Translations under genes and position numbers: made by a program | Shown here: positions 2,738 to 58,268 of the stretch, in pieces | How positions within the stretch are numbered: position 1 is the stretch's first letter | Layout: the number at the start of each line of letters is the position of its first letter | Assembly (NCBI RefSeq): GCF_004698125.1 | Contig: NZ_ML214297.1 | Coordinates: 2,020,891-2,084,890 of the forward strand | Source: Halosimplex halophilum | GTDB taxonomy: Archaea; Halobacteriota; Halobacteria; Halobacteriales; Haloarculaceae | Direction of reading: 5' to 3' | Length of the DNA: 64,000 bases | Notes under the pieces: generated by a model | Database searches by the model: none | What the model was told of the DNA's origin: nothing | Seen by the model: only the letters and a program-made list of their open reading frames with translations

Positions 2738-3631
2738 ATGCTTCGCCCGCCCGCAGTCACGGAGTTGATGGAGGACGCGGAGACGGCGCCGCCCGACGAG
2801 GACGCGCTGGCGGTCGCGCGGCGGCTCGACGAACCCGGGGTCGAGGCGGTCGTGGTCGTCGACGCCGGCGAGGTCGTCGGCATCGTCACGGAGTCGGACG
2901 TGGTCGCGCTGGTCGTCGAGGACCGGGACCCCGAGGCGCTGACGGCCGCGGACGTGCTGTCGAGTCCGGTCCACACCGCCGCGCCCGACGAGTCGGTCGT
3001 CGACGCCGCCGAGCGCCTCCGCGCCCACGGGATCGAGGCGCTGCCGGTGGTCGACGGCGGCGAACTTCGCGGCGTCGTCACGACGACGCTGTGCTCGCAG
3101 TACCTCCCGCACGTCCGCCGGGCCGCGCCGGAAGCGGGGGGCGACGACGACCGCGTCCGCGAGACCGAGCGCGCCGACACCGCCTACGAGAAGGCCGACT
3201 GGTCGTTCGAGTACGTCGGCCACCCCGACAGCATCGACGTGGGCGACGTGGTGCGGTTCTCGAAGCCGCTCGACGAGGCGGAGGTCGAGGCGTTCGCCGA
3301 CGCCAGCGGCGACACCAACCGCCTGCACCTCGACGACGAGTACGCCCGCGGGACCCGCTTCGGCCGGCGCATCGTCCACGGGACGCTCGTCGCCGGCGTC
3401 GTCAGCGCCGCGCTCGCCCGGCTCCCGGGGCTCGTCGTCTACCTCTCCCAGGAGGTCAGCTACCTCGGCCCGGTCGACATCGGCGACCGGGTCACGGCCG
3501 CCTGCGAGGTGGTCGAGGCGGTCGGCGAGGACCGCTACCGGCTCACGACGACCGTCACCGACGGCGGCGACGAGACGGTCGTCGACGGGGAGGCGGTCGT
3601 CCTCGCCGACCCGATCCCCGAAACCGCCTGA
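2738..3631 (+). CDS. CBS-domain pair fused to a MaoC-like hydratase
   Basis: A 297-residue protein. Residues about 4-128 are two CBS motifs (EAVVVVDAGEVVGIVTESD and EALPVVDGGELRGVVT), a module that usually binds adenosyl ligands and regulates an attached domain. Residues about 150-295 are a MaoC-type hot-dog domain with the hydratase signature FADASGDTNRLHLDDEYA followed by RIVHGTLVAG, the active-site Asp/His region of (R)-specific enoyl-CoA hydratases. It may hydrate an enoyl-CoA under control of cellular nucleotide or SAM level; that regulation is inferred only from domain architecture. No obvious fatty-acid genes are adjacent. Confidence 0.88.
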   Translation: MLRPPAVTELMEDAETAPPDEDALAVARRLDEPGVEAVVVVDAGEVVGIVTESDVVALVVEDRDPEALTAADVLSSPVHTAAPDESVVDAAERLRAHGIEALPVVDGGELRGVVTTTLCSQYLPHVRRAAPEAGGDDDRVRETERADTAYEKADWSFEYVGHPDSIDVGDVVRFSKPLDEAEVEAFADASGDTNRLHLDDEYARGTRFGRRIVHGTLVAGVVSAALARLPGLVVYLSQEVSYLGPVDIGDRVTAACEVVEAVGEDRYRLTTTVTDGGDETVVDGEAVVLADPIPETA

Positions 3632-56268: not shown

Positions 56269-57129
56269 TCAGCGGTCGACCGTCGACGGCTCCTCGACGA
56301 CGATTTCGCCGGAGAGCTCGTGCTGGGTGGTCGTGCTGAGGTCGATGCCGGCGTCCGCACAGCGCTCTTTGACCCGCTGGATGTACGTCGATCGGGCGAC
56401 GGAGAACTCCTCGCGGTCGGGGCTGTCGATCCAGAACCGCGACTGGACGAGGACCGCCGAGTCGGCCAGGTCCGTGACGCGCACGGACGGTTCGGGGTCG
56501 TCGAGGATCCCCTCGTGGTCGTCGGCCACGTCGAGGAGGATCCGGGTCGTCTCGTCGATGTCGTCAGCGTAGCCGATGCCGAACGGGTAGGAGATGCGCA
56601 GCTGTTCGTTGCTCATCCGGTTGGTGACGGCGGTCGTCGCGAGCTCGGTGTTCGGGACCGTGACCGTCTCGTTGTCGAAGGTGCGGACCCTGGTCACGCG
56701 GAAGCCGATGTCCTCGATGAACCCCGCGCGGCCGTCCCACTCGATCCAGTCGTCGATGTTAAAATTGCGGTCCTGGACGATGAACAGGCCGGCGACGAAG
56801 TTCGAGAGCACGTCCTGGGCGGCGAACCCGACCGCCAGCGTTAGCGCGGCGACCACGAGCGCCGACCCGCCCAAAAGCGCGGTGAACCCCGCAGCCGCGA
56901 CGCCGGCCGCGAGCGCGACGACGACCACCGCGACGCCGAGCACCTTGAGCAGCGCCCGTTCCAGCGTCGACTCCAGGGTCCAGCGGTCGAGCGCGAACGC
57001 CGCGAGCGGTTCGACCACGAAGCGTCCGAGGAGGTAGACGACGACCGCGACGGCCGCGAACTCCGCGAGCTGCCAGCCCAGCGCGGCGTACTCCTCGCCC
57101 AGCTGCGAGAGCGACTGCAGGGGGGTCAT
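56269..57129 (-). CDS. mscS: Small-conductance mechanosensitive channel (MscS family)
   Basis: 286 residues from the ATG at 57129, set by a TATA-like box 28 nt upstream. Membrane helices lie at about 18-40, 60-82 and 85-110; the pore helix has the Gly/Ala pattern AAGFTALLGGSALVVAALTLAVGFAAQDVLSNFVAG typical of MscS TM3. The cytosolic beta domain has FNIDDWIEWDGRAGFIEDIGFRVTRVRTFDNETVTVPN and the C-terminal alpha/beta domain follows. It opens under membrane tension during hypo-osmotic shock. The gene lies tail-to-tail with the 64-residue gene. Confidence 0.93.
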   Translation of the reverse strand: MTPLQSLSQLGEEYAALGWQLAEFAAVAVVVYLLGRFVVEPLAAFALDRWTLESTLERALLKVLGVAVVVVALAAGVAAAGFTALLGGSALVVAALTLAVGFAAQDVLSNFVAGLFIVQDRNFNIDDWIEWDGRAGFIEDIGFRVTRVRTFDNETVTVPNTELATTAVTNRMSNEQLRISYPFGIGYADDIDETTRILLDVADDHEGILDDPEPSVRVTDLADSAVLVQSRFWIDSPDREEFSVARSTYIQRVKERCADAGIDLSTTTQHELSGEIVVEEPSTVDR

Positions 57130-57160: not shown

Positions 57161-57275
57161 TGGTCACGCGAGTCGCTCGCAGCCGGTGATTCATCCGGCG
57201 AATCGTTGCCGCTCAGGGCGACTTTCCGCCGTAACCGTTCCGGCACCGATTCGCGACCGAGGTGCGGTGGCGCGC

Positions 57276-57303
57276 GCTGTCGCGAGTCTTGGCTCGCGAC
57301 AGC
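57276..57303. other. Perfect 11-bp stem-loop
   Basis: GCTGTCGCGAG, loop TCTTGG, CTCGCGACAGC. No T-run follows, so terminator function is unlikely. It may be part of the composite repeat element that ends at 57545. Confidence 0.6.
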
Positions 57304-57422
57304 ATCGCGCGAGGGATGAGCACCGCACGCCGCAGGCGCGCGGAGCGCAATCGGCTGGGGAGGGTCGTGGCCGTCTGCGTTGCTGTGCGGGGTGGGTACG
57401 GTACCGTGCTGTCCTGGTGGAC

Positions 57423-57540
57423 TGAAAGGGCGAGACGCGCTCGCGTGCAGTTCAGTCGCCTGAGTCGGCTCTATCCGCGCGGGCGGTGCGGAGAGCGCGG
57501 ATATCCGACTCAGCGACCGCGAGCGCGTCGAGGGCTTTCA
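57423..57540 (+). repeat. Structured dispersed repeat, copy 2
   Basis: A long folded element: TGAAAG/CTTTCA ends (57423-57428 with 57535-57540), asymmetric internal loops GGCGAGA and TCGAGGG, 10-bp CGCGCTCGCG/CGCGAGCGCG (57436-57445 with 57518-57527), GTCGC/GCGAC and TGAGTCGG/CCGACTCA (57455-57468 with 57505-57517), and an apical 9-bp stem (57472-57480 with 57495-57503) with 14-nt loop. Copy 1 keeps all stems, with TCGG/CCGA changed to CGGG/CCCG on both sides. Confidence 0.75.
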
Positions 57541-57644
57541 CCGCTCGCTGTCGAGTGCAGTCGACGATCCAGAGCGAGTCACGCGAGTTTGCTCGGTACG
57601 TCCGGCGGCAATAGCGAGATACGGAACCGAAGCGTCTCGAACAC

Positions 57645-58268
57645 CTAGACGCCGTCGAGGAAGTTGCGGATCACGTCGTGGCCGACCGCAGTTAACACCG
57701 ATTCGGGGTGGAACTGGACGGCCTCGATCGGGTGCTCGCGGTGGCGGATCCCCATCACCAGGTCCACGGTGTCGCCCTCGTCGGTCTCGGCCTCGGTGGT
57801 GGCGGTCACCTCGAAGCAGTCGGGGACCTCGGTGGCGACCAGCGAGTGGTAGCGGCCGCCGCGGATCCCCTGGTCGAGTCCCGCGAAGACGCCCTCGCCG
57901 TCGTGGCTGATCGGGAAGGCCTTGCCGTGGATGGGCTCGGGCGCGCGCCCGACCTCGCCGCCGTAGGCGTAGACTGCGGCTTCGAGGCCGAGACAGACCC
58001 CGAGCGTCGGTACTTCGGGGCTGATCTCGGTGAGCACGTCCAGCGTGACGCCCACGTCGCGGTCGTTCTCCGGGTGGCCGGGGCCGGGCGAGATGACGAT
58101 GGCGTCGGGGTCGGCGGCGCGCACGTCGTCCAGCGACGCGGTGTTGCGGACGACCTCGGTGTCGGCGTGCTCGCTGACGTACTCGACGAGGTTGTAGGTA
58201 AAGGAGTCGAAGTTGTCGACGAACAGCACCTGCCGCTCGTCGGCGCGCTCGCGCCCGGCGGCGCTCAT
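57645..58268 (-). CDS. trpG: Anthranilate synthase component II (glutamine amidotransferase)
   Basis: 207 residues. Class I amidotransferase triad: Cys in TLGVCLGLEAAVY, His and Glu in VQFHPESVL. It begins with NFDSFTYNLVEYV after a short acidic leader, and contains ISPGPGHPE. It frees ammonia from glutamine for TrpE. Last gene of trpDFEG; its ATG overlaps the trpE stop by 4 nt. Confidence 0.95.
   Translation of the reverse strand: MSAAGRERADERQVLFVDNFDSFTYNLVEYVSEHADTEVVRNTASLDDVRAADPDAIVISPGPGHPENDRDVGVTLDVLTEISPEVPTLGVCLGLEAAVYAYGGEVGRAPEPIHGKAFPISHDGEGVFAGLDQGIRGGRYHSLVATEVPDCFEVTATTEAETDEGDTVDLVMGIRHREHPIEAVQFHPESVLTAVGHDVIRNFLDGV

Follow-up and report, generated by a model that had tools for sequence, protein, structure and literature searches.

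Two elements that fold in the same layered way, one on each strand, raise the question of what has been dispersed in the 64-kb window (the whole stretch of Halosimplex halophilum DNA that was analysed). The first-pass annotation had left the choice between a non-coding RNA family, a REP-like mobile repeat and a protein-binding site. We found that both elements are members of a single dispersed family and that their fold is the one drawn in that annotation. The core of copy 1 (locus L015, 57419-57540, + strand) is both a place of the arm motif GGACTGAAAGGGCGAG and a match of 131 bits to R1, a covariance model built from 60 diverse cores. The core of copy 2 (locus L014, 2453-2574, - strand) has the same fold and is likewise a motif place and an R1 match, of 119 bits. 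Between its arm GGACTGAAAGGGCGAG and its 3' arm CGAGGGCTTTCA, copy 1 contains a stem (57435-57445/57518-57528), a middle helix (57455-57468/57505-57517) and an apical stem-loop (57471-57504) with a loop of 14 nt (57481-57494), all on the + strand. The apical stem and loop, described earlier as identical, are the same in both copies over 36 nt, loop included (CTATCCGCGCGGGCGGTGCGGAGAGCGCGGATATCC), and the 10-bp stem CGCGCTCGCG, described as perfect, is identical in the two. The exchange of TCGG/CCGA for CGGG/CCCG in the stem between them is indeed compensatory; in that strand the minus copy has one extra C. Upstream of the copy 1 core, again on the + strand, lie a 5' hairpin domain (GGCGCGCGCTG...CGCGCGAGG, 57269-57313), a second 5' hairpin module that ends in ATCGGCTGGGGAGG (57314-57363) and a linker rich in GCGGT and GCTGT (57364-57418) with CCTGGTG at its end, directly before the core; the remnant of a 3' tail unit (CTGTCGAGTGCAGTC) follows at 57541-57571. 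Copy 2 lacks the 5' hairpin domain and has, on the - strand, a GCGGT-rich linker (2575-2663) and a 57-nt tail unit with a second 3' arm (GCGAGCGCGGCGAGGGCGTTCA, 2396-2452). Both copies are intergenic. Copy 1 is flanked by the gene of an MscS-like channel (56269-57129, -) and that of a class-I glutamine amidotransferase (57645-58268, -), presumably trpG, and copy 2 by the genes of a molybdopterin oxidoreductase (1161-2252, -) and of a CBS/MaoC protein (2768-3631, +). Each copy folded slightly better than its shuffled sequences, with z -2.5 for copy 1 (1 of 200 shuffles equally good) and z -2.2 for copy 2 (6 of 200).

Both annotated copies exist, but the element, first described as present twice, has about 75 good copies in the genome and belongs to a larger composite. 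Allowing up to two mismatches, GGACTGAAAGGGCGAG was found at 92 places, 42 of them exact, against 6 places (3 and 3 per strand) for the reversed pattern used as a control; the two orientations are about equally common (47 and 45 places). Searched over 86 genome loci, R1 gave 75 matches at E<=1e-6, one of which is the antisense of another. A small number of motif places, among them L077, L078, L080 and L084, are chance occurrences. When genes were predicted with a codon-score finder trained on the 64-kb window, none of 88 motif places lay inside a predicted gene and no gene was predicted over any of them. Their flanking genes were both oriented like the motif in 28 cases, divergent in 23, convergent in 19 and both opposite in 16, while 2 places had no upstream gene.

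The core measures about 120 nt (mostly 108-124 nt without an inserted hairpin) and is one module of a composite of 350-500 nt in Halosimplex. This composite begins with the 5' hairpin domain, which precedes 74 of the 88 motif places at a median of 166 nt before the core, and continues with a second hairpin, which is variable and has CGGCTGGGGAGG at its end; then come a GCGGT-rich linker that varies in length, the core itself and the 57-nt tail units, each of which repeats the 3' arm of the core. Tail units are spaced by exactly 57 nt in 44 of 56 cases among the genome loci, and 12-mers common to the copies fade past about -300 and +300 nt. The points at which optional hairpins occur are fixed: one lies in the apical loop, and the others follow the CCCGCT strand, precede the head or follow the 5' hairpin. 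The genome also contains relics, among them a 5' domain that stops right after the first arm of the core and deletions between repeated arm sequences. Several further features of the modules were recorded. Hairpins are inserted after the CCCGCT or GTCGCT strand at loci L002, L016, L035, L051 and L074 and before the head at L013, L024, L245 and L246, and small hairpin modules at fixed points are present in other genera too; these modules may be mobile repeats of their own. In tail arrays such as that at C2:257345-257537, each 57-nt unit offers a further 3' arm for a single 5' arm. At L055:1501-1621, one copy has a 3' arm that now complements its 5' arm perfectly (CTCGCCCTTTCA), as though it had been copied from that arm. 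We also considered a peptide encoded by the 57-nt tail and rejected it: entropy by codon position was 0.53/0.57/0.79 over 42 distinct units, a weak excess at the third position with many first and second positions varying, and the reading had one in-frame stop among 40 units listed.

Compensatory changes were then sought among aligned homologues and were found in abundance. The MAFFT alignment A1 comprised 60 cores of 108-128 nt picked for diversity, over which 37 pairs were scored. Pairing was observed in 94.7% of the cells against 88.9% in shuffles, a figure favoured by the fact that the structure was drawn from these same sequences; the compensatory changes are less affected, with 20 of the 37 pairs showing them against 8.9 in shuffles and 118 compensatory cells against 32.9. 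None of 500 shuffles reached the A1 value for paired cells, compensatory pairs or compensatory cells, and sliding the partners abolished the signal. Outside Halosimplex (alignment A4, 57 matches fitted to the model), two or more different Watson-Crick types were each seen in no fewer than two rows at 25 of the 37 pairs. Much of the variation consists of whole helix blocks that are swapped, such as GAGCGGG/CCCGCTC, GAGCGAC/GTCGCTC and the window's GAGTCGG/CCGACTC. In the resulting layout, CTGAAAG/CTTTC forms the arm and GGCGAG/CGAGGG an internal loop; a GC-rich stem comes next, then a second helix, which covaries, and an exchangeable apical hairpin. The arm sequences are invariant and the internal loop, which from its sequence would be able to form tandem G-A pairs, is kept in nearly all A1 copies.

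The selection on an RNA or a cruciform put forward in the first-pass annotation is therefore upheld as far as selection on the fold is concerned, whereas a plain double-stranded DNA cruciform is less likely given the distribution of wobble pairs between the strands. If the duplex mattered, G-T and A-C oppositions would be equally common on the + strand. We counted 75 G-T against 21 A-C cells in A1 (G-T occurring at 20 pairs and A-C at 12), 68 against 17 in an alignment of simple cores (129 of 178 distinct complete cores, 108-135 nt long), 62 against 16 in A3 and 87 against 13 in A4, where leaving out the terminal pair gives 47 against 12; the copies being related, the cells in these counts are not independent. 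Taken pair by pair, G-T exceeded A-C at 19 pairs against 6 in A3, counted after removal of its two weakest rows (one a relic of deletion, the other antisense to L055; sign test p 0.015), and at 13 against 5 in A4 (p 0.10). This excess on one strand indicates that one particular strand is folded, and the + strand of the core is likely to be that strand, as RNA or as single-stranded DNA.

The annotators' statement that other haloarchaea have similar repeats proved right, and the covariance search that they had proposed gave a first estimate of the spread. With a limit of 12 scored candidates per genome and a threshold of E<=1e-3, R1, with its 60 cores, matched 110 of the 293 Halobacteriales genomes sampled, the matches being spread over 38 of 87 genera. 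A looser arm-to-arm pattern, GGACTGAAAGGGN{0,4}CN{80,110}GGGCTTTC, was present in 154 of the 293 genomes and 53 of the 87 genera, at up to 113 places per genome, and its reversed control gave 0 in every row listed. This pattern also catches a type B scaffold (with GCAAGCAC inside), in which the arms and the GGCGAG/CGAGGG loop are as in type A, and a subtype in which a GGG/GGG loop replaces the latter. The interior of type B differs (GACG.AAGCAC...GCGCAGCGAGTC) and is enclosed by CTGAAAG/CTTTC arms, as seen in L100, L119, L127, L165, G172 and others. Two cores lie head to head, about 180-270 nt apart, at L245, L246, L253, L262 and L263, in the manner of a REPIN or an inverted composite. Eight plasmid records match, none of them with an annotation under the match; R1 did not match the Haloquadratum plasmid PL47, no phage record matched and the exact pattern was found in 0 viral contigs.

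Within Halosimplex, named records of H. pelagicum, H. salinum, H. carlsbadense and H. aquaticum carry the motif, and many sites are shared. At the copy 1 site, H. pelagicum (G003) has an identically placed and oriented copy, which differs in its helix block and has an additional apical hairpin and an additional tail. H. aquaticum (G005, L231) has a copy on the same side of the trpG-like gene in opposite orientation, which suggests an independent arrival in one intergenic gap, and the matched stretches of G002, G004, G006 and G007 contain no copy. Orientation was the same at 20 of 20 occupied shared sites in H. pelagicum, 6 of 6 in H. salinum, 6 of 6 in H. carlsbadense and 1 of 2 in H. aquaticum; matched sites without the element numbered 7, 2, 3 and 3, respectively. 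The loci were chosen because they bear the element, so that the share of occupied sites is biased upward while orientation is unbiased, and the comparison leaves aside matches of L063+, whose flank consists of another element, and four loci where the motif occurs by chance. Copies at shared sites were no more alike than copies taken at random: the orthologous copy ranked on average 21st of 43 H. pelagicum copies by similarity (18 of 19 pairs could be ranked; for L031 there were two copies in the locus, and the one with the better rank was taken). L073 and L049 are 95.5% alike over 400 nt, though each occupies a site that other species share. These results suggest exchange between copies; fast neutral divergence of intergenic DNA could also produce the random ranks. 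Empty intergenic DNA aligns poorly between species, and the empty sites are too diverged for a target duplication to be read.

Movement itself is documented by two other species, G214 and G302, both of one genus, a single pair picked since two of its matches had an equal score. Both genomes contain a composite in which a B-type core in reverse, a middle domain and an A-type core in forward orientation follow one another. The two composites are 96.6% identical over 322 nt, with identical A cores, and the surrounding 5.5-kb stretches have no other similarity. One composite thus occupies unrelated sites, which means that it has moved. The element-free sites mentioned above likewise favour mobility. 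The exact ends of the element derive from this one genome pair, in which, as the one clean case, no target duplication was seen. Neither a transposase nor an active copy of the element was found.

On this basis, we think it reasonably probable that the elements form a short, transposase-less mobile repeat family of haloarchaea, with a core that folds on one strand and that is built into a composite in Halosimplex. Among the possibilities first listed, the REP-like repeat fits best, with some 75 intergenic copies and a composite at unrelated sites, and the other two are less likely. Movement would use the folded single strand, read by a putative enzyme acting in trans; copies at old sites may be kept alike by exchange among dispersed copies, through gene conversion or template switching, and the optional hairpins would be further small repeats nested at fixed points. 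The preservation of a perfect fold at old sites nevertheless suggests some use, for which a purely selfish element would not account. A rival candidate is a multicopy structured RNA with a cellular role (a regulator, a sponge or a processing signal) whose + strand is transcribed by readthrough or from distant promoters. We consider this unlikely, even if the strong covariation, the wobble preference on the + strand, the site and orientation conserved across species and the tandem G-A-like loop would all suit such an RNA. In the 60 nt that precede the 5' domain, none of 74 copies has an AT-only hexamer of the kind expected in a TATA-like promoter, which makes a standard archaeal promoter of the element's own unlikely and a dedicated RNA gene less likely, while leaving some room for an RNA role. 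Moreover, neighbouring genes lie in all four orientations (28/23/19/16), the distribution is patchy (110 of 293 genomes) and no Rfam family corresponds: Rfam 15 gave 0 matches at the gathering score in the 64-kb window, with only sub-threshold chance matches over the element at E<=5.

A bound DNA site, in which selection would act on a protein-bound duplex or cruciform, as in a nucleoid, topology or replication element of the BIME kind, would explain the intergenic positions in nearly equal orientations (47 and 45 places), the invariant arms and the conserved sites. We hold it to be improbable, and a double-strand site such as the protein-binding site first suggested is less likely, as neither this nor a cruciform should favour G-T over A-C on one strand. 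Slightly less credible again is a derivation from IS605-type ends, in which the elements would be relics (PATEs) of transposons with a deleted tnpB core, moved by IS200 TnpA. Palindromes, the absence of coding capacity and many copies are features of PATEs too in the sections of PMC3119063 that describe them, but PATEs are described there as lacking inverted arms, which the core does have. A location of the copies inside larger transposon ends was assessed in part, at the 4 tnpB loci of the H. halophilum genome, and none of these carries the head, tail or 5' domain of the element. Nor does Y1_Tnp track the element: among genomes of our own choosing, it was found in 12 of 17 that are rich in the element and 5 of 9 that are poor in it, and as this transposase is missing from 5 of the 17 and present in 5 of the 9, no IS200/IS605 link shows.

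Returning to the mobile repeat family, its sequences might even represent an order-wide mobile class, although we would not count on it. The mobile form of this class would be a strand-specific folded single strand; scaffolds A and B would share an arm-and-loop clamp as a handle for a putative enzyme or ribonucleoprotein; hairpins would nest at fixed points, and exchange would keep dispersed copies alike, so that site and orientation would be inherited and sequence would not. Our overall verdict is that these repeats form a genuine haloarchaeal family that was mobile in the past at least and whose strand-polar fold is unusually well supported. It offers a testable picture of what many haloarchaeal intergenic regions contain, R1 finding the element in more than a third of the sampled Halobacteriales, and advises caution with gene annotation over these repeats.

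Among known systems, the REP/BIME and REPIN sequences of bacteria with RAYT transposases are intergenic palindromes present in tens to hundreds of copies, REPs being 20-40 bp long. The haloarchaeal element resembles them in its intergenic palindromes, its high copy number and the head-to-head pairs of some genomes. It differs in size, with a core of about 120 nt and a composite of 350-500 nt, and no RAYT-like partner was found, Y1_Tnp being distributed over element-rich and element-poor genomes as given above. The family does not appear in the literature searched, mainly listings and the beginnings of abstracts, where the motif strings occur only in papers on unrelated subjects; the main text of PMC2864571, in the part available, has no haloarchaeal terms and the accessible text of PMC3733652 no 'halo' term. 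PATEs (palindrome-associated transposable elements), as the relevant sections of PMC3119063 present them, are non-coding, heterogeneous and palindromic elements of high copy number without inverted repeats, whose ends are common to IS605-type transposons. The present element is likewise non-coding, heterogeneous, palindromic and found in many copies, but its core has inverted arms and no kinship with IS605 ends was seen at 4 of 4 tnpB loci. With these loci devoid of the element and no Y1 link, we regard membership of the PATE/IS605 type as unsupported. The sections of the same paper on the SMR-A elements of Haloquadratum walsbyi (HqIRS42, HqIRS43 and HqIRS55) describe transposase-less repeats that measure about 110 bp, have inverted ends and occur in tens of copies. 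Their several families are alike in form and not in sequence; they insert into the near-terminal palindromes of PATEs or IS605-type transposons, make no target duplication and have a mode of movement called 'enigmatic' (PMC3119063). Compared by description only, our cores are similar in length (mostly 108-124 nt), in their inverted terminal arms (CTGAAAG...CTTTC), in their tens of copies and in having no transposase gene. SMR-A elements lie inside other palindromic repeats; here the core is downstream of a hairpin domain at 74 of 88 places, and the tnpB loci lack that domain. In contrast to SMR-A, the present core is mostly part of one composite and extends over 38 (model) to 53 (pattern) of 87 genera, and its conserved fold, compensatory changes and strand polarity have no counterpart in those sections. 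On the best reading, the element is closest in description to the SMR-A and PATE elements of Haloquadratum, and its strand-polar, covarying fold provides a direct clue to the 'enigmatic' movement of these transposase-less repeats (PMC3119063, sections on SMR-A).
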